This document shows positions 10,628-20,692 of a DNA stretch of 33,517 nucleotides, one piece after another. The DNA comes from Methanobacteriota archaeon (GTDB lineage Archaea > Thermoplasmatota > Poseidoniia > Poseidoniales > Poseidoniaceae). The notes under the pieces are model-generated. The model saw only the letters and a list, made by a program, of their open reading frames with translations. It did not search any database and was not told where the DNA came from. Every line of letters starts with the position of its first letter. Within the stretch, counting starts at the first letter, position 1. The stretch is taken from contig PAQE01000020.1 in NCBI GenBank assembly GCA_002709705.1, positions 27,081-60,597 on the forward strand, written 5' to 3'. The translations under genes were made by a program, and so were the position numbers.

Positions 10628-11696
10628 TCAGCCCGGATTACTAACAATTTACTTGCAATTAATGAAATTACGAGTAGTTGTGCTGTTGCAGATAACTGCA
10701 ATATGTGCAATCCTCGCTCATGATTTGATGGTAAGAAGCGACGCAATACCAGGTGATCGAACGTGGCTCGATACACTTCAATCATCTTTAGTGACGTTAC
10801 TAGGTGGTACCTTGGCCGCAGGTGGTTCAAATGCAATCAATATGGTGTATGACAGGGATATTGACCCTGGAATGTCACGAACAAGAACTAGACCTATTCC
10901 AAATGGCTGGATTTCTCCTAAACATGCACTGATATTCGGAATTTGTATGGCTACGCTGGGTACAGCGGTATTCATTCCTATTCATTGGAAAGCAGCCTTT
11001 TGGTCGTTATTTTCTGTACTGTTTTACGTTTTCATTTACACAATATGGCTGAAAAGAAGAACTCCTCAAAACATAGTTATTGGCGGTATTGCAGGTTCAA
11101 CTCCTCCATTGATTGGCTGGATAGTGGCTGCATCAGCAAATATTCCTGATAATATGAACCCTTTCGACTTAGCGTCGCCAATCCCGTGGATGTTATTATT
11201 GCTGATTTTCTTTTGGACGCCCCCTCATTTCTGGGCTTTAGCATTGTATCGAAGTGGCGAATATGATAAGGTCGGAGTTCCCATGCTACCGGATGTTAAG
11301 GGAGCGGAACGTACACTAAAAGAATCCAAAATATACTGCGTTTTATTGTTCCTCATTGGTTCTGTGCCTTGTTTTTGGCCTGAATATGGATTGCCTTTAG
11401 CTTGGGCATTTATTTCCGGTTTCCTGACATTGTGGTATTCGATATCTGTATGGAGAATAAATCCCAATGAAGAATTGGATGCAGATGGAAGGATGCCTCT
11501 AGCATTTGCATCATTTATGCGTTCTCTTGGTTATCTCGCGTGGATGTTTATCGCGTTCGTATATATCGCTGCAGTACCAAGTGAGCAGATTTGGTACTTC
11601 TCTTTCGGTTTCATTTTAGCAGTGCCAATTGTTAATCTGTTTGTAATCAAATGGAAAAATTCCAATTCACAGAGGAAAGTACTGAATGCGGAGTGA
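10620..11696 (+). CDS. ctaB: Protoheme IX farnesyltransferase (heme O synthase)
   Basis: A polytopic UbiA-family prenyltransferase of about 358 residues that attaches farnesyl to heme B, giving heme O, the substrate of CtaA. The diphosphate/Mg-binding motif is NAINMVYDRDIDPGMSRTRT, followed by RPIPNGWISP. The second conserved loop is YTIWLKRRTPQNIVIGG, then PPLIGW and FFWTPPHFWALAL. The ATG at 10620 overlaps the end of ctaA by 8 bases, which implies translational coupling; a GTG at 10611 in the same frame is a weaker alternative. Together with ctaA it completes the heme B to heme A route, so a heme-A terminal oxidase should exist elsewhere in the genome. Confidence 0.94.
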   Translation: MNNQPGLLTIYLQLMKLRVVVLLQITAICAILAHDLMVRSDAIPGDRTWLDTLQSSLVTLLGGTLAAGGSNAINMVYDRDIDPGMSRTRTRPIPNGWISPKHALIFGICMATLGTAVFIPIHWKAAFWSLFSVLFYVFIYTIWLKRRTPQNIVIGGIAGSTPPLIGWIVAASANIPDNMNPFDLASPIPWMLLLLIFFWTPPHFWALALYRSGEYDKVGVPMLPDVKGAERTLKESKIYCVLLFLIGSVPCFWPEYGLPLAWAFISGFLTLWYSISVWRINPNEELDADGRMPLAFASFMRSLGYLAWMFIAFVYIAAVPSEQIWYFSFGFILAVPIVNLFVIKWKNSNSQRKVLNAE

Positions 11697-11706
11697 TTGC
11701 ATTAGG

Positions 11707-11840: not shown

Positions 11841-14792
11841 TTAGTTGAAGAAATCTTGGAATTCATCATCTAAATCTGCAGGTGCATTTGCAGCACGCCT
11901 TGCCATGACTCTCTTCATACGCTTTCTCTTCTTCAAAATCAATGGAAGGCCAACGAAATTGATAATCACTGTAAGTAGCATTACCATTCCAGCAATTTGG
12001 AAATTTTCGATTGTCATGTAGTCTTGTAAATCGCCCAACCATTCCACGCCATACGGTGGCTCTGGCTCTGGTTCAGGTTCAGGTATCCTGTATTCGTTGT
12101 ATTGCCAATATTGGTCTTCAATGTAGACTCTTTCCACATTTTCAGATGGATAGTCCACAAAGGTGAATTCGTTACCTACGCTGTCTAATGGCGTTAGAAT
12201 GTAGTAATATGTTCGGTAAGGAGCAATTCCATCAAATTCTGTTCCGGATTGAGTGAATGTGCCTTCTTCTCCTGGTATGTTTACTAGTCCAGTCGCAATA
12301 GGTTCGATATATCTCAAATCTACATCGTTAGGTCTCTGTTCAATTCTGTACATGTTCCATGAAATATTTCCTTCAGGTTCATTATCTGGCCATGTCCACT
12401 TTAATGTGACTTCATAGCACCGATGCCAATCATTGTACAAGTCGAAACAAGAAGAATCGTTATTGTAGCTCACAGTCGCTCTCAATTCAGATACTTCTGA
12501 ATTAGGGTCAATCGCATCTCCGCATGTTAGGCCAGGTGCTCCGTTGGCAAGTGATACCTTTGCTGCCAAAAAGTCAGGTTCGCCAGTCCTATCGGTTGGA
12601 ATAATGGCGTATGATGAACAGATTCCAGTTTCTAATTCTCTTTCATCAATCCATGAATTAGCCGTGCCCTCAAGACTTGCTGATAATCCACCTTGCATCA
12701 AACCATTCCAAATGAATTCACTGCTAGTAACAGCAGGGTCAGGGAAGTAGGTGGAGGCTGTTATCGGACTGGTAACTCTGTATATTTTCCAACCTCCAAA
12801 GTAAGGATTTTCTATGTCTCCGGTTGCATTCCAATCCAGTCTCATTTGTCCATCTGGTAGAAGAGTAAGTTCTGGAGATGAGAGGTTTATTTCAGGTGCA
12901 GGCAAATCTCCGACTAGGAGTAAGTCCATGTTTTGATCAATATGTACTCTCAGAGTGTCATTGTCAATCAATTGGTAGTAATTGCCAGAATCTAGGGGGT
13001 CCCAATCTAGCTGATTATAACCTAACAATTGGTGCATTGCAATGCTGTCTCTAGGTACATTGTCTGGAATTAGTTTGGTCAAATTGATATCGAACTCCAT
13101 CCAATCCATCCCAGCACTCTGTTCTTCAGTTGTGGGAACTACATCGATAGAGAATCTAAGTAAGGCTTCCAAACCTTCTCCAGGCCCGTAATTTACACCA
13201 GCCAAAGGATAGTCATACTCGACAACGCCCTTGGCATGAGTACGTGTTACCGCTGAACCATTCAACCAATCTCCTTGGCTGATGTCAGTGCTATTGAAAA
13301 TGGTGATCAATGTGGTTGCTGATTCTAAGTTATTCAATGAATCAAAGGCTCTTATTTGTATGAAATGATCTCCTAAACCAAGGTTGCTTGCGGGTATGGT
13401 TACTTCTTGTCCTTCTGCAATCAATTGTATTCCAGCACGATACCATTTGTAGGTTAGTGGTCCTGCTGCTGTTGACGAGGTTCTTGCGCTGAATGTGATG
13501 TTGTCTGCTGTGTTATAGGTGCCATAGAAGTTACTTTGCTCAATAATTGGATCGATGTCGCCGACAATAACTTGCGCCTGAACATTTAGGATGTTATCGG
13601 AAGGTTTGGCATCCAATCCTTCATTGAGTGCTTCGCTGACGAATACTTTCAGCTTCTTGTCACCTAATTCATTTAAATCGAAAATGCATGTTTCTTCATT
13701 TCCAGGAAGAATCTCAGACGGCAGGCAATCTTCCTCCGATTCAGTTTGTTCATCCAAGTCCATTACTGTGAACCTAACTAATGGTTCTACTACTGTATGA
13801 TTTCCTATATTCGAAATAGTAACTGCTACGCTATCATTTCCATAGAAATACTCCGCAGATGTAGGTGCGTTGAGCGGGAACATAGAAGAAATTTGCAAGT
13901 CGACGGTATCATCAAAAATAACCTCTATGCTTTGGTAATCATTGAATGAATTCATGTCGCCGGAAGGAGTTCCTATGGAATTTAGAATACCGAATTGCAT
14001 TGTATATGTTCCTTCTGAGTCGAAGTTTAACACCGGTAAATTTCTACTGAAAGCAACAGTTCCCCAATTTGGTAAATTGGTGTAAGTCGTGGAAGAATTT
14101 GCACGCTCAACACCTAGGGAATCGAATAATTTCCATCCAAGGTCTGCTTCTAAACCGCAAGAGCCACAAGAACTTACAATTCCGTCCATTGACATTTGAT
14201 AATCTGTATCGGTATTTAGGATGTATTTGCCATTATATTCTGCCAAATTATCTAGTTGAGAGATTAGATCTTGCTCACCAATACTAACATCAACTAATTT
14301 TCGGGCTAAATTGAAGTTGAATATCGCAACATCGTTTGAAGTGACTGTATCAGAGTCTATGAATCTATAAACAATGGTATAGGGGCCTTCATCTCCAAAA
14401 GAATTGAATGACTGCGTAAAGGTGTAATTAATCGATGCGCCGATGGGGAGAGATTCAATTGAACCAATCCCGTAATCTTCTCTGTCATTGTAACAATCGA
14501 ATTCTGTTTGGAACCCTTCACACACGAACCATTCTATTGAACGACTTTCAGTGTTGTAGAAGAAACCTGTATTTGTGACCTGTACTTCAATGTTCAAAGG
14601 GTCCCAGGCTGTCATGTAAATATCCGGACGAGGCGAAATTGATGTTGTAATTTCATAATCACCACTAACGGATGCTGTAGCTGTAGGTGCTAACAAAATC
14701 CCACCTAGTGATGACAAAACCATTAGCGCAACTAAGCCAATACTCTTCTTCGAAGAGTGCAGTCTGGATACAGCATGCGCGCTGGACATCAT
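11841..14792 (-). CDS. Large secreted, C-terminally anchored surface protein
   Basis: A protein of about 983 residues. A signal peptide (SIGLVALMVLSSLGGILLA, cleavage after PTATA) leads to a long extracellular beta-rich body. Early parts look like repeated CARDB-type adhesion domains. A PKD/Ig-like domain follows (PLTYKWYRAG), then two fibronectin-III-like domains with phrases such as WKIYRVTSPI, ISWNMYRIEQRP and YRTYYYILTPLDSVGN. A Pro-Glu repeat linker (PEPEPEPEPP) precedes one membrane helix and a basic cytoplasmic tail rich in K and R. Cysteine pairs suggest disulfides. The ATG at 14790-14792 is preferred over a TTG at 14816 because a TATA-like box lies about 26 bases upstream. Role: cell-surface adhesion or an S-layer-associated component; ligand unknown. 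Confidence 0.82.
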   Translation of the reverse strand: MMSSAHAVSRLHSSKKSIGLVALMVLSSLGGILLAPTATASVSGDYEITTSISPRPDIYMTAWDPLNIEVQVTNTGFFYNTESRSIEWFVCEGFQTEFDCYNDREDYGIGSIESLPIGASINYTFTQSFNSFGDEGPYTIVYRFIDSDTVTSNDVAIFNFNLARKLVDVSIGEQDLISQLDNLAEYNGKYILNTDTDYQMSMDGIVSSCGSCGLEADLGWKLFDSLGVERANSSTTYTNLPNWGTVAFSRNLPVLNFDSEGTYTMQFGILNSIGTPSGDMNSFNDYQSIEVIFDDTVDLQISSMFPLNAPTSAEYFYGNDSVAVTISNIGNHTVVEPLVRFTVMDLDEQTESEEDCLPSEILPGNEETCIFDLNELGDKKLKVFVSEALNEGLDAKPSDNILNVQAQVIVGDIDPIIEQSNFYGTYNTADNITFSARTSSTAAGPLTYKWYRAGIQLIAEGQEVTIPASNLGLGDHFIQIRAFDSLNNLESATTLITIFNSTDISQGDWLNGSAVTRTHAKGVVEYDYPLAGVNYGPGEGLEALLRFSIDVVPTTEEQSAGMDWMEFDINLTKLIPDNVPRDSIAMHQLLGYNQLDWDPLDSGNYYQLIDNDTLRVHIDQNMDLLLVGDLPAPEINLSSPELTLLPDGQMRLDWNATGDIENPYFGGWKIYRVTSPITASTYFPDPAVTSSEFIWNGLMQGGLSASLEGTANSWIDERELETGICSSYAIIPTDRTGEPDFLAAKVSLANGAPGLTCGDAIDPNSEVSELRATVSYNNDSSCFDLYNDWHRCYEVTLKWTWPDNEPEGNISWNMYRIEQRPNDVDLRYIEPIATGLVNIPGEEGTFTQSGTEFDGIAPYRTYYYILTPLDSVGNEFTFVDYPSENVERVYIEDQYWQYNEYRIPEPEPEPEPPYGVEWLGDLQDYMTIENFQIAGMVMLLTVIINFVGLPLILKKRKRMKRVMARRAANAPADLDDEFQDFFN

Positions 14793-14813
14793 GTTGTCCT
14801 GCCGCCCGCCCCT

Positions 14814-14821
14814 CAAATATC
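14814..14821 (-). promoter_or_regulatory. TATA-like box of the surface-protein gene
   Basis: On the minus strand this reads GATATTTG, centred about 26 bases before the ATG at 14792. It fits a leaderless transcript and makes the longer TTG start unlikely. Confidence 0.5.
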
Positions 14822-15993: not shown

Positions 15994-16037
15994 GTGTTTT
16001 TGGCGTATCGTTCATTTAGTGTGATTGATTGGGTGGT

Positions 16038-16829
16038 ATGTTAGCCATGCAACCTGCAACAGTTTACACCCGCGACCGTTGTATTACGGGCATCCATGGA
16101 ATGGATGAAATTCTGCGAGGCGGAATCCCTTACGGTTCAACAGTTTTAGCAGCAGGAACCTGTGGTTCTGGAAAGACAACTCTTGGCATGGAGTTCCTTG
16201 TCCGTGGTGCTTTAGCAGGAGAGGCATGTGCTCACTTTACTGCAACAGAGCCTAGCGTCAAATTACTAGAAAACATCCGTCAATATGCCTTTTTCGATAT
16301 GAATATGATTGACAGTGGGTTGATCAATGTATTCGATATGGACGTTTTGTATTCTTGGCTTGGACTAGACAAAGCATCGTTCGACTTGGACGATGTTCAC
16401 GCACTAATCAAAGCGATTGTCGACATCGTTAACACGATTGGTGTCACAAGGTTGGTAATCGATTCTGTAACCACCCTTTGTTACAAGATTAAGAGTGAGC
16501 AGTTGATTAGAGATTTCTTGTTTACTTTGGGGAAGAAGTTAGCAACTTTAGGATGCACAACAATTTTGATTTCTGAGATTACATCAGCTACCGAAAATGC
16601 ACATTGGTCCTCATTTGGTGTAGAAGAGGCGATTGCTGACGGAATCATCGTGATGGGCGACGTAGAACGAATGGGCCATTTGCTTAGATTCTTGCAAGTC
16701 GTTAAAATGAGAGGTACTTCACATAGCCGCGCTAAACATGCGATAGAGCTAACACCCCTCGGAGTCATGCTGACTCCAATGCTAAAATGGGGTGCTGTTA
16801 GCGACAAGACAAACAGATGGGGGTCCTGA
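16038..16829 (+). CDS. RecA-superfamily KaiC-like ATPase (P-loop intact)
   Basis: A protein of about 263 residues with one KaiC/RadA-like domain (COG0467 type). It opens with CITGIHGMDEILRGGIPYGS, a Walker A GTCGSGKTT at residues 40-48 (Lys46), and Walker B RLVIDSVTTL. It ends with KMRGTSHSRAKHAIEL, the usual KaiC-type C-terminal strand. The family includes KaiC, FlaH/ArlH of the archaellum motor and many uncharacterised archaeal signalling ATPases. The ATG at 16038 has GGGTGGT directly before it and is preferred over a TTG at 16029. It is first in a tight set with two related genes (gaps of 2 and 13 bases). No DNA-repair feature is seen; the role is unknown. Confidence 0.87.
   Translation: MLAMQPATVYTRDRCITGIHGMDEILRGGIPYGSTVLAAGTCGSGKTTLGMEFLVRGALAGEACAHFTATEPSVKLLENIRQYAFFDMNMIDSGLINVFDMDVLYSWLGLDKASFDLDDVHALIKAIVDIVNTIGVTRLVIDSVTTLCYKIKSEQLIRDFLFTLGKKLATLGCTTILISEITSATENAHWSSFGVEEAIADGIIVMGDVERMGHLLRFLQVVKMRGTSHSRAKHAIELTPLGVMLTPMLKWGAVSDKTNRWGS
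16819..16823 (+). promoter_or_regulatory. Shine-Dalgarno-like GGGGG deciding the start of the next gene
   Basis: GGGGG lies 8 bases before the ATG at 16832. The third gene of the cluster has the same arrangement (GGGGG at 17417-17421, 8 bases before 17430). This favours 16832 over the overlapping ATG at 16817. Confidence 0.55.
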
Positions 16830-16831
16830 TT

Positions 16832-17416
16832 ATGTATGAATTGGATCAAAGAATCGCTGAGCAATTAACCGAGGTCAGCCTCAATTCCTCAATCCAAGTT
16901 AGATGTGGAAATTCGAATGCGTTCATGGTTACTGCTTCCACAATGATTCCACTAATGCAGATGTTCGAAATGGGTGGCGTCTACATTTGCGCTACTCGTG
17001 GCGCAGTCGAGATTATCGAAGCATTCGAGGCAATTGGTGTTGATGTTTCCAACATTCAATTCGTAGATTTGGTTTCTTCAGGAATTTTGGGAGGCACAGA
17101 AGTACCTTACAGCAATATTACATTCGTTGACAGTCCAATCATGTTAGAAAGCGTGCTGCTGAGAACTCTTTACATCTTAAGAATCTCAAACAATGAAAGG
17201 AATTTCGTTCTTATTGATTCAGTCAATGCATTAGCGATTTACAATGAAGAGAGAATGCTGGCGGAATATCTTCACACCTTCATCAATACCTTTAGACAAA
17301 GAGAAGTATTGTCTGTCATTCTAAATATTCCAGACCAGGTGCCGCCAACGGTTCTTTCCAATCTTGACCTGTACTGTACCGACTTAATTGATAGAGGGCA
17401 GGTTGTAATTCATTGA
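16832..17416 (+). CDS. KaiC-like protein without a P-loop (probable pseudo-ATPase)
   Basis: A protein of about 194 residues that follows the fold pattern of its upstream neighbour. GVYICATRGAVEIIEAFEAIG matches the beta-strand/helix after the P-loop, and NFVLIDSVNALAIYNEERML matches Walker B and the helix after it. The region where Walker A should be reads CGNSNAFMVTASTMIP, with no Gly-Lys-Thr/Ser, so ATP binding by the normal route is not expected. It is also shorter, lacking the N-terminal strand and C-terminal strands. It is translated 2 bases after the active paralogue. Likely a regulatory or structural partner of the ATPase; haloarchaeal RecA-like proteins without a P-loop are a possible parallel. 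Confidence 0.75.
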   Translation: MYELDQRIAEQLTEVSLNSSIQVRCGNSNAFMVTASTMIPLMQMFEMGGVYICATRGAVEIIEAFEAIGVDVSNIQFVDLVSSGILGGTEVPYSNITFVDSPIMLESVLLRTLYILRISNNERNFVLIDSVNALAIYNEERMLAEYLHTFINTFRQREVLSVILNIPDQVPPTVLSNLDLYCTDLIDRGQVVIH

Positions 17417-17429
17417 GGGGGTTGATTAG

Positions 17430-18233
17430 ATGAGTAAGCAAATCAAATTCAGTCCTGATGATGAAGAATTCTTTGGTAGCGTTGGAAGTTTTGGCGTTCC
17501 AAAGTTCGATAATGCGATGAATGGGGGCGTCCCAAGAGGATTCTTGGTGGTCGGTTTTACCGAAACTGGTTCAGGTTTAGAATTGTTTGCAAAGCAACTG
17601 ACATCTCCTGCTGAAGAGCCAGACAATACAATCTTGATTTCTACAAACGAGAGTCAATTGGAGATTGCAAGGGTTTTCAATAAGTACAAGTGGCCAACAG
17701 ATATCGCTGTCAGAACTCTAGGTGAAGAATACAACGCTAAGGTTCTTGAGAAGGAATTGCTTGCTAGCCGTTACCGCCTTGAAGGCTTCAAGTTACCAGA
17801 TATCCAGCGTTTAGCTCAAACTAGGTTTGTAGATGATGACACTCAGGATTTCTTGACAGAGATGACTAACGAGATTATGGCAATGGGTCCTTACTTCAGA
17901 GCGGTCATTGATTCACTTGATTTCTTCATGCAAAGAGAAGATCAGAGCAGAGTAGTTGCGATGTTGCGTATGATGCAAGCACACACTCAAATCCACCGTG
18001 GAATATTGTTCGTCACTGTTTCAAAGGACACCATCACTCCTGCAATTAAGCAAGAAATGGCTGCTATTGCCGACATGGTTTGTGACTTCAAGGTAAGAAC
18101 AATTGGTTCCGATTTCGAAACCTCGATGACAGTCTCTAAGTTCAGAAATGCTCCCGAAAACTTGTCAATTATGGTTTTCAGAGTCACTCCAGAAGAAGGA
18201 ATTACTCCAGAAACTGTCGAGCGCATTGCCTGA
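17430..18233 (+). CDS. KaiC/FlaH-like protein with degenerate Walker A
   Basis: A 267-residue RecA-fold protein. It starts with FGVPKFDNAMNGGVPRGF, the standard entry of KaiC domains, then VVGFTETGSGLELFAKQL at the P-loop. The catalytic lysine position is Leu50 and the following Ser/Thr is Glu51, so hydrolysis should be lost, although the glycine loop shape remains. The Walker B region is RAVIDSLDFFMQ. The C-terminal strands resemble the first gene of the set. A GGGGG 8 bases before the ATG is its ribosome site. It ends the cluster; a 185-base spacer follows. The role is unknown; a complex with the active paralogue is inferred from gene order. Confidence 0.8.
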   Translation: MSKQIKFSPDDEEFFGSVGSFGVPKFDNAMNGGVPRGFLVVGFTETGSGLELFAKQLTSPAEEPDNTILISTNESQLEIARVFNKYKWPTDIAVRTLGEEYNAKVLEKELLASRYRLEGFKLPDIQRLAQTRFVDDDTQDFLTEMTNEIMAMGPYFRAVIDSLDFFMQREDQSRVVAMLRMMQAHTQIHRGILFVTVSKDTITPAIKQEMAAIADMVCDFKVRTIGSDFETSMTVSKFRNAPENLSIMVFRVTPEEGITPETVERIA

Positions 18234-18385
18234 TACGCTATGTGTGGATATTTACTCCATCTGGCGGTTACTGAATGGTTTACCCAAAGCCCATTTAACG
18301 CTGTAGCATGCGAATAAGAATTCGTTTCGCCCGCTCTTTAAAAGCCAATATTCGATTATTTCCAGTATGATTTTTAGGGTGCCCT

Positions 18386-18395
18386 AATTTTATCT
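18386..18395 (+). promoter_or_regulatory. TATA-like box of the M28-ZIP fusion gene
   Basis: AATTTTATCT is centred about 28 bases before the ATG at 18419, which supports this start and a leaderless transcript. The 18234-18418 spacer also has an earlier TTTAAAA at about 18340. It has no gene that I can see. Confidence 0.5.
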
Positions 18396-18418
18396 AGGGC
18401 TCGCTTTACGCCACCAAC

Positions 18419-20692
18419 ATGGGGCCGTCCTCAGACCGTACGTTGACCATTGTCGGTTTGATTTCAGCTATTGTTCTATTATCGAGTTTAACATACGAAT
18501 ATCTTCTTCATGAAGAAAATGAGATTTCCTTTTCAATAGATAATTCGGACATGATTGAGGACATCGATAGAATTGCATCATTTGGCCCAAGAGTAGCAGG
18601 TTCTGCTGAAGAAAATCTTGCAACAGAGTACATAAGCCAACGATTTATCGAAATCGGCCTTGAAAATGTTAAGGTTGAGGAATTTCAGGTAACAGGTGCT
18701 TGGTTTGTTGATGCAGACCCTGACGAGCATCAAATATTGATGCATGCGCAATTAGAGCAGGGATTGCAAAATGGCCCAGGATTGCCTGACGGAACTGCAG
18801 GTTCTGGAAGAATTGCTATTGAAGAAACAGGTCATTTAAACCATATAGAGGCTTTTACTTATCTAGGATATTCAGGCGCTAATCACAAGCATGACAACAT
18901 GCTTACCTTCCTTGGAAACGGTTCAGCAGAGCAATTCGAGAGTATTGGTGATTTAACCGACCTCGCTGTAATGATTAATTATGATAATTCACGAAGTCTC
19001 GCTGAGATTTACAAAGACTCCATAGATCGAAATGCTGGTGTCGTAATGATATATTCAGAAGGGGTTGAAACTCCACCTTTCCGTTCAGTAACGGTCAAAG
19101 AAAATGGAGAAACTGTTCCGTTTCCTGATGCTTACGATGGACAATATGCAGACTCACTGATTCCATACATATACATCTCTGAAAGTGTCGCAATGGTGTT
19201 TCATGATTATATCGAACAGGCGGAAAGCGATTCCACAATATTTGCATCATTGGATGGATTTTGGGAAGGAAATAATGTTGGCACCAGGAGTGTAAAAGTC
19301 GTAACTGGAGAACTTCCAGGTAAAGGAGAAGGTGAGATTTTAGTTGGCGCTCACCATGACTCTGTTTACATTAGCCCTGGGGCAGTTGACAATGCTGTTG
19401 GCGTGTCACAACTTTTCGAAGTTGCTACACAACTAAGCGAACTTAACCTAGACTCAACTGTTAGATTTGCGACATGGGGTGGCGAAGAGCTTGGTTTGCT
19501 TGGCAGTCAAGCCTACATAGAATCCAATCAAGAATACATAGAGTCTCTCGATTTGTACATCAACCTAGATTCAACAAATCTCAATCCATCCAAAGGGCTT
19601 GGCACTCTTGGAATTGAAACATCTGATGCTAACCTTGTTGATTCCATTTCTAAAATCCAGAGTTCAGTGTTGAATAATGGGGAATGGAATGAATATGATG
19701 CGACTGTCCAAGTAAACCCACAAGGTAACAGTGATCATCGAGCGTTTAATCAATTTGGTACGACTACAATAGGATTTTATGGATGGGAATATGAAGAATA
19801 CCATCGCCAAACCGATGTGCCAAGCGTTATTCATCAAGAGAGTTTAGCATTAACAGTAGAAATTGTCCTACAAGTCCTTGTTACTCAAGGTGGTCATGAA
19901 AGCGTGGAGGAACCGCTCATCCAAATCTCCGGCTTGGAGGGTGAATCAGAATCATGGGTCTTTCCTTTTGTTCTAGCTCTATTGGCTGGGCTAGCAACTG
20001 GAATCGGTGGATTGATTGTGTTTGTTGTGAAAGAAATCAGTCAGGAAATGATGGCTTTTTTACTAGCGATGGCTGCTGGTGTGATGTTGTTGGTTTCTGT
20101 CCTTGATTTGTGGTTTGGCCAGGCGTTGGAAAATGGTTTCCTACCTATCACTATTTCATTTGGTATTGGCATGGCGATCGTTTATGCGGTGGGTATGTAC
20201 ACTACGAAAGGTGAGGATATCTCGGAAATGACAAAAGAGCGAAAACTGTACAAATCCGGCATCTTAACTGCTATTGCCTTAGCAATTCATAACTTTCCAG
20301 AAGGGCTAGCAATGGGCGTTGCTGTCCTCGAATCAGCTCAGTATGGTGTTGTGCTCATGGCTGCTATTGCCTTACACAACATACCAGAAGGCATCGCAGT
20401 AGCTGCACCAATTCAAGCAGGGGGCGGGGGGCGGCTGAAAGCAACACTTATTGCAATGGCGACTGGTTTTACAGAACCATTGGGAGCCTTGTTTGCCTTG
20501 TTGATTTTAGGACCAATATTGACGCCATTCATGGTTGGGTGTTCGCTCGCATTTGTCGGGGGAATAATGACGGTTGTTGCTTACAACGAATTAATACCCC
20601 AAGCGATGGAACAAAATCGTCCGAGGCACCTTGTTGTAGGGGCGGTATTTGGGGCTGCAGTAATGCAACTTAGCCTACTATTACTTGGTTGA
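18419..20692 (+). CDS. M28 zinc metallopeptidase fused to a ZIP metal permease
   Basis: A single 757-residue ORF with two families. Residues 9-27 form a membrane anchor. Residues about 40-490 are an M28 peptidase. The five expected co-catalytic zinc ligands and the general base are visible: His312 (GAHHDS), Asp324 (GAVDNAVG), Glu356/Glu357 (GGEELG), Asp384 (NLDS) and His440 (NSDHRAF). Residues about 512-757 are a ZIP transporter of the GufA/ZupT type with eight probable helices, including the paired metal-site motifs HNFPEG (624-629) and HNIPEG (653-658). The peptidase should lie outside the cell and the ZIP domain in the membrane. ZIP proteins import Zn and related metals. Both halves look intact, so the fusion may tie peptide breakdown to metal uptake (inference). 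The reading frame is unbroken through the junction and through a G-rich stretch near 20420. Confidence 0.9.
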   Translation: MGPSSDRTLTIVGLISAIVLLSSLTYEYLLHEENEISFSIDNSDMIEDIDRIASFGPRVAGSAEENLATEYISQRFIEIGLENVKVEEFQVTGAWFVDADPDEHQILMHAQLEQGLQNGPGLPDGTAGSGRIAIEETGHLNHIEAFTYLGYSGANHKHDNMLTFLGNGSAEQFESIGDLTDLAVMINYDNSRSLAEIYKDSIDRNAGVVMIYSEGVETPPFRSVTVKENGETVPFPDAYDGQYADSLIPYIYISESVAMVFHDYIEQAESDSTIFASLDGFWEGNNVGTRSVKVVTGELPGKGEGEILVGAHHDSVYISPGAVDNAVGVSQLFEVATQLSELNLDSTVRFATWGGEELGLLGSQAYIESNQEYIESLDLYINLDSTNLNPSKGLGTLGIETSDANLVDSISKIQSSVLNNGEWNEYDATVQVNPQGNSDHRAFNQFGTTTIGFYGWEYEEYHRQTDVPSVIHQESLALTVEIVLQVLVTQGGHESVEEPLIQISGLEGESESWVFPFVLALLAGLATGIGGLIVFVVKEISQEMMAFLLAMAAGVMLLVSVLDLWFGQALENGFLPITISFGIGMAIVYAVGMYTTKGEDISEMTKERKLYKSGILTAIALAIHNFPEGLAMGVAVLESAQYGVVLMAAIALHNIPEGIAVAAPIQAGGGGRLKATLIAMATGFTEPLGALFALLILGPILTPFMVGCSLAFVGGIMTVVAYNELIPQAMEQNRPRHLVVGAVFGAAVMQLSLLLLG

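Follow-up and report, generated by a model that had tools for sequence, protein, structure and literature searches.

Large ectodomains are not foreign to ZIP metal permeases: the eukaryotic ZIPs ZIP4/LIV-1 carry a large extracellular N-terminal domain, unrelated to M28 peptidases, on the ZIP permease. M28 domains joined to a multi-helix membrane part are present in ERMP1/Fxna, Pff1, and GPAA1, whose membrane parts are, to our knowledge, neither ZIP permeases nor iron-regulated. The ectodomain of transferrin receptor 1 (TfR1) is of the M28 type and has no peptidase activity. Marine Group II archaea, which inhabit iron-poor surface water, rank among the most abundant archaea of the plankton, and no description of their iron uptake was found in the open-access literature searched. 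Among permeases and partners linked to iron, ZupT of E. coli carries iron and cobalt besides zinc (PMC3852070), and in marine algae iron is taken up by a ZIP together with Fea1 (PMC7676907). Here we analyzed a gene of Poseidoniales (Marine Group II) that encodes an M28 domain and a ZIP permease in one chain. The preliminary description of this DNA, made from the letters alone, had known of no description of the architecture; we likewise found no precedent in the open-access literature, where absence is weak evidence. What we rate as new is a putatively iron-controlled ZIP importer with a novel, M28-type ectodomain.

The gene lies in a window of 33,517 nucleotides, by which we mean the whole stretch of DNA that was analyzed. 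A single uninterrupted reading frame encodes, in this order, a membrane anchor, an M28 ectodomain, and an eight-helix ZupT-type ZIP permease (Table 1). The M28 half was matched by Pfam with an E value of 1.7e-33, and the Zip model (PF02535) matched residues 605-751 above its cut-off (E 2.7e-24). The ZupT model of NCBIfam covers residues 511-756 (E 1.3e-57) with 195 bits against an equivalog cut-off of 252, and a match to BbZIP spans residues 503-751; judged from these matches, the permease half is a ZIP member, yet no strict ZupT equivalog. The metal sites of both halves, already noticed in the preliminary description, are complete in the window protein. The M28 site holds its five ligands H312, D324 (bridging), E357, D384, and H462, along with the base E356 and D314 of the HxD motif. 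The ZIP site consists of H624-N-x-P-E628-G, H653-N-x-P-E657-G, and E686 in helix 6.

The joint structure predicted by AlphaFold2 (mean pLDDT 82.8) comprises the N-terminal helix, an alpha/beta ectodomain, and eight membrane helices, with a pTM of 0.63 that makes the modelled placement of the ectodomain on the permease uncertain. In Foldseek searches, the ectodomain matched the M28 aminopeptidase 2ek8 (E 1.1e-24, TM-score 0.76 by target) and, more distantly, the transferrin receptor ectodomain 1de4 (E 2.8e-18). The alignment with a standalone M28 paralogue of the same genome begins at the N-terminal helix region of the fusion. The expected topology has the N-terminus inside and the ectodomain outside, with ZIP helix 1 entered from the outside, and a leaderless transcript would be expected for the gene.

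Table 1. Features of the M28-ZIP fusion locus, in positions of the window
Feature	Coordinates	Strand	Basis and remarks
Operator-like palindrome TTAGGGTGCCCTAA	18374..18387	+	45 bases 5' of the start codon
Putative TATA-like element TTTTAT	18388..18393	+	Abuts the operator, 26-31 bases before ATG; proposed from sequence only
M28-ZIP fusion gene, 757 aa	18419..20692	+	Open reading frame, Pfam; shared by 41/319 Poseidoniales genomes
N-terminal membrane helix, residues 6-34; anchor or signal anchor, N-terminus predicted inside	18434..18520	+	AlphaFold2 helix and sequence
M28-type ectodomain, predicted extracellular, residues 42-490, with inserted PA-like region	18542..19888	+	Foldseek
Peptidase_M28 match, residues 295-486; ligands H312, D324, E356/E357, D384, H462	19301..19876	+	Pfam
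Linker between the halves, residues 491-513	19889..19957	+	Low confidence, pLDDT <60 around 491-510 (AlphaFold2)
ZIP permease of ZupT type, eight membrane helices, residues 514-756	19958..20686	+	Pfam, NCBIfam, AlphaFold2
H-N-F-P-E-G motif, ZIP helix 4, residues 624-629	20288..20305	+	Sequence
H-N-I-P-E-G motif, ZIP helix 5, residues 653-658	20375..20392	+	Sequence

A search for proteins with both domains recovered the fusion, in one frame, from 41 of 319 Poseidoniales genomes, a count that takes in one genome (G017) whose contig stops within the fusion gene. The carriers belong to both families and include MAGs as well as single-cell assemblies; their proteins are about 757-783 aa long, contain no internal stop, and diverge down to about 48% identity. 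Since the same architecture appears in one frame across all these genomes, MAG and single-cell, an artefact is ruled out and the fusion proposed in the preliminary description is confirmed as genuine. The opposite reading, in which assembly or annotation merged two adjacent genes through a missed stop or frameshift, has practically no probability left, refuted as it is by relatives from dozens of independent assemblies that yield an identical frame. Every member of the fusion's ZIP clade (at least 65% identity) in the 319 genomes is fused; neither a standalone gene of this clade nor a split pair was found there, and the short frames are contig-edge truncations only. The standalone ZIPs of Poseidoniales represent a different lineage of about 30-35% identity and about 280 aa. 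Sampling 390 genomes of the phylum, we found no fusion outside the order; the nearest ZIPs there (37-41%) stand alone. Viral contigs gave no match, and a viral origin was rejected on that ground.

Two other configurations were encountered during these searches. Archaeal ZIPs of ~590 aa from other members of the phylum (L091:2428-4194 and L092:2566-4359, both on the minus strand) bear an unrelated large N-terminal secreted domain and a His-rich loop. In another genome, a remnant (L035:5998-6075, equal to G003:C1:178777-178854) that resembles fusion residues 722-747 (73%) and contains one stop lies just 5' of an intact fusion, as from a decayed tandem copy.

We scrutinized the upstream regions of the fusion genes. 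Of 31 distinct regions, 27 contain an exact palindrome, TTAGG-N4-CCTAA, at −44 to −47 from the start codon; its arms are conserved, the N4 spacer is free, and the surrounding flanks are non-homologous. The remaining four regions (L038, L041, L043, L087) lack a clean box. The palindrome matches the core of the DtxR/IdeR operator consensus, 5'-TTAGGTTAGCCTAACCTAA-3' (PMC7762939). In 27 genomes of the genus, TTTAGG-N4-CCTAAA was present at 63 sites versus 10 for the reversed control, and in 12 further fusion-bearing genomes at 47 versus 2. The shorter pattern shows no enrichment when the window's genome is taken by itself (7 versus 6); what supports an operator is therefore the position in promoters and the recurrence over many genomes. 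The box was absent within 200 bases 5' of 20 standalone ZIP genes and within 200 bases of 2 ABC-3 genes, and none was found at 22 standalone M28 loci. A DtxR-family protein of about 223 aa with both Fe_dep_repress domains is encoded in 22 of the 27 genus genomes, and none was found in the window's own genome, which is 77% complete. A DtxR/IdeR-type repressor may act on the palindrome.

The box recurs in front of other genes whose starts lie 20-105 bases downstream. Repeatedly found behind it were flavodoxin, Fea1, a lipoprotein of the transferrin/phosphonate-binding family, glutamyl-tRNA reductase (hemA), a short Cys-rich protein, and a TSP3-type protein, along with the FTR1 iron permease in one genome. 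Transferrins are the best solved relatives of the transferrin-family lipoprotein (E about 2e-17). Among its D/Y/Y/H iron ligands, Y, Y, and H are kept in 21 of 21 sequences and D in 19 of 21, being E otherwise; the anion-binding Thr is kept, and Lys or Gly occupies the Arg position. Flavodoxin, Fea1, FTR1, the transferrin family, and the heme gene form an iron signature, suggesting that the box marks iron-starvation genes.

Several families in this set are widespread. Transferrin-family (PF00405) lipoproteins occur in 253 of 319 Poseidoniales genomes, including the window's (L117:414-1544, minus strand; G000:C34). Many of the frames are about 700-750 aa long with two matches, and two-lobed forms are likely; among solved structures, ovotransferrin and serotransferrin are the best relatives of the family. 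Lipoproteins of the Fea1 family, known from algae as a periplasmic protein inducible by low iron, are found in 99 of 319 of these archaeal genomes, behind the same box as the fusion, and the window's genome has two copies (L112, L116). At seven loci (L129, L130, L131, L150, L155, L173, L175), an iron-type box sits between divergent flavodoxin and zinc-type dehydrogenase genes, and in several of these genomes a DtxR gene lies ~10 kb off on the same contig.

The link to Fea1 was also apparent in gene content. Fea1 is present in 33 of 41 fusion genomes versus 66 of 278 others (Fisher p 2.8e-12), and in a within-genus permutation the expected mean was 16.6 and 0 of 20000 permutations reached 33; the permutation controls for genus only, and all co-occurrence counts are limited by incomplete genomes and by common descent. 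The transferrin family was found in 37 of 41 versus 216 of 278 (p 0.07), and its co-occurrence was dropped as evidence because the family is too common in the order to discriminate.

We then compared the two metal sites across the fusion proteins. In one clade (L077/L082, L079/L080/L083, L081/L086, L087), the last M28 histidine is lost throughout; L077/L082 have asparagine for the first M28 histidine, and all the other members have lost the bridging aspartate. L085, which lies outside this clade, shows D to N, catalytic E to G, and H to N changes, an independent loss. At the ZIP site, H624, N625, E628, H653, N654, E657, and E686 are invariant in all members scored, bar one N to T change (L037). 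The dN/dS ratio of close pairs is 0.03-0.16 in both halves, ligand-less ectodomains included. Both halves are thus under purifying selection, and the reading frame is kept even in ligand-less members. The ligand-less ectodomains are therefore kept for something besides M28 chemistry. In these members peptidase chemistry is dispensable and a docking or structural role is favored, at least there; in the intact majority, the window copy included, catalysis would be possible. The catalytic role envisaged in the preliminary description agrees with the full set of ligands in the window copy, and is weakened as a purely catalytic role by the subclade that keeps a broken-site ectodomain. One genome (G255) has two fusion genes, one per clade (L085 and L086), with broken M28 sites and with ZIP residues intact where sequenced.

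The flanking DNA of the fusion is non-homologous between most genomes, and the neighbors vary by genome. A conserved metal operon was mostly absent; the fusion behaves as a unit of one gene plus promoter. Exceptions with a transferrin-family neighbor are L082/L088/L097, and in G286 one stretch contains the fusion, a transferrin-family gene, a GSDH-family lipoprotein, ferrochelatase, Fea1, an ABC ATPase, and a permease. In the window, three consecutive KaiC-like ATPase genes (16029-18233) directly precede the fusion and are not kept beside it in relatives; a 991-aa protein without Pfam match is encoded at 11841-14816 on the minus strand. Comparison of window positions 11657-11705 and 18374-20692 with positions 3757-7960 of L039 revealed syntenic DNA of the same genus, in which the fusion and its promoter alone occupy different places. 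This suggests frequent relocation or transfer of the gene with its promoter. Between G211 and G065, which belong to different families, DNA identity over the fusion gene is 97%, suggestive of inter-family transfer; part of the flank is similar too, and bin contamination is thus an alternative.

Which metal the permease carries, and how the two halves work together, can be read in several ways. According to the preliminary description, the protein imports zinc, with an external zinc peptidase that could either liberate zinc or amino acids from metal-binding peptides or present zinc to the channel. In its favor, each half is classically a zinc protein, zinc is the metal for which ZupT is best known, and the window copy has all M28 ligands. 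Against this stand the operator, the regulon, and the Fea1 co-occurrence, which indicate iron starvation, and the M28 ligands missing in several members. The ABC-3 (ZnuB/MntB-type) permeases provided a further comparison. They are found in 9 of 39 genomes with a standalone ZIP versus 166 of 280 others (p 2e-5), as expected of standalone ZIPs that replace the ZnuB-type zinc/manganese permease as an alternative uptake system, and it is these ZIPs that lack the operator. The fusion is no such substitute: ABC-3 permeases are present in 31 of 41 fusion genomes versus 144 of 278, a positive association overall and not significant within genus, and replacement by the fusion was rejected. We therefore hold the zinc reading to be quite unlikely.

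Import of manganese, or of manganese and iron together, under an MntR-like member of the DtxR family is less probable again. The DtxR family does include manganese regulators and sensors, and ZIPs can carry manganese; however, the box is common to flavodoxin, Fea1, FTR1, transferrin-family, and heme genes, and the candidate repressor is longer than the short MntR types. The lowest chance of these three functional alternatives goes to two uncoupled activities, an amino-acid-feeding surface aminopeptidase and a metal permease, anchored together and fused for co-expression. Co-expressed proteins are commonly fused, and standalone anchored M28 paralogues exist in nearly all Poseidoniales, but mere co-expression fits poorly with a fusion that is strictly conserved in two families without split copies, with iron control, and with retention of peptidase-dead ectodomains under purifying selection.

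We consider it probable that the gene encodes an iron-starvation-induced single-chain surface importer, most likely of Fe2+, whose M28/PA-type ectodomain captures, frees, or docks iron carriers. The identity of the repressor, Fe2+ as the main substrate, the topology, and the role of the ectodomain are deduced from sequence and its context in the following scheme. At low iron, a DtxR/IdeR-type repressor would leave the palindrome beside the TATA region. The chain would pass from inside to outside by its N-terminal anchor, place the M28-type ectodomain outside, and continue into the ZupT-like permease, which would import mainly Fe2+; ZupT-like permeases also carry zinc, cobalt, and perhaps manganese. 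At the permease mouth, the ectodomain could work with the co-regulated Fea1 and transferrin-family lipoproteins, trimming or opening iron-carrying peptides or proteins where the peptidase site is intact and docking or binding carriers where it is broken.

A bolder version, which we regard as doubtful, is a prokaryotic counterpart, in Poseidoniales, of transferrin and its receptor: transferrin-family and Fea1 surface lipoproteins would bind ferric iron and dock on the M28-fold domain fused to an Fe2+-importing ZIP. It is attractive because the fold is shared, transferrin-family proteins are co-regulated, and catalysis is lost in some members. The best sequence and structure matches of the ectodomain are bacterial aminopeptidases rather than the TfR/GCPII (M28B) branch, and the transferrin receptor is absent from the list of sequence hits; a receptor-like role would be convergent. 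If true, delivery and membrane passage would be united in one chain, and an ancestral peptidase would be seen turning into a receptor. More generally, these results delineate a testable iron-starvation regulon for an uncultured order, consisting of the operator, flavodoxin, Fea1, transferrin-family proteins, FTR1, and M28-ZIP. ZIP ectodomains are of unclear purpose in many organisms, and an M28 ectodomain under apparent iron control, with dead versions, offers a natural series for asking their role.

Compared with known systems, the permease half resembles ZupT of E. coli and BbZIP (SLC39-like) in its eight helices, the HNxPEG motifs in helices 4 and 5, and the helix 6 glutamate. ZupT and BbZIP have no enzyme-like ectodomain, whereas the fusion's ZIP clade is always fused and has an iron-type operator. 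The ectodomain is like M28 aminopeptidases with a PA insert (Aneurinibacillus 2ek8, B. subtilis YwaD/BSAP) in its fold over the whole length and, in most copies, in its di-metal ligands; those enzymes are secreted without a transporter, whereas some fusion members lack the ligands. With TfR1 it shares the fold family (1de4), a membrane anchor, a presumed role in iron uptake, and catalytically broken members, but TfR1 has no permease and works as an endocytic receptor, and bacterial aminopeptidases are closer relatives of the archaeal domain. Finally, unlike the ZIP (Irt1) and Fea1 of Ostreococcus, which are separate eukaryotic proteins without an M28 domain, the archaeal protein is a single chain; as in that marine plankter, a ZIP and a Fea1-type iron binder would serve together under iron starvation (PMC7676907).
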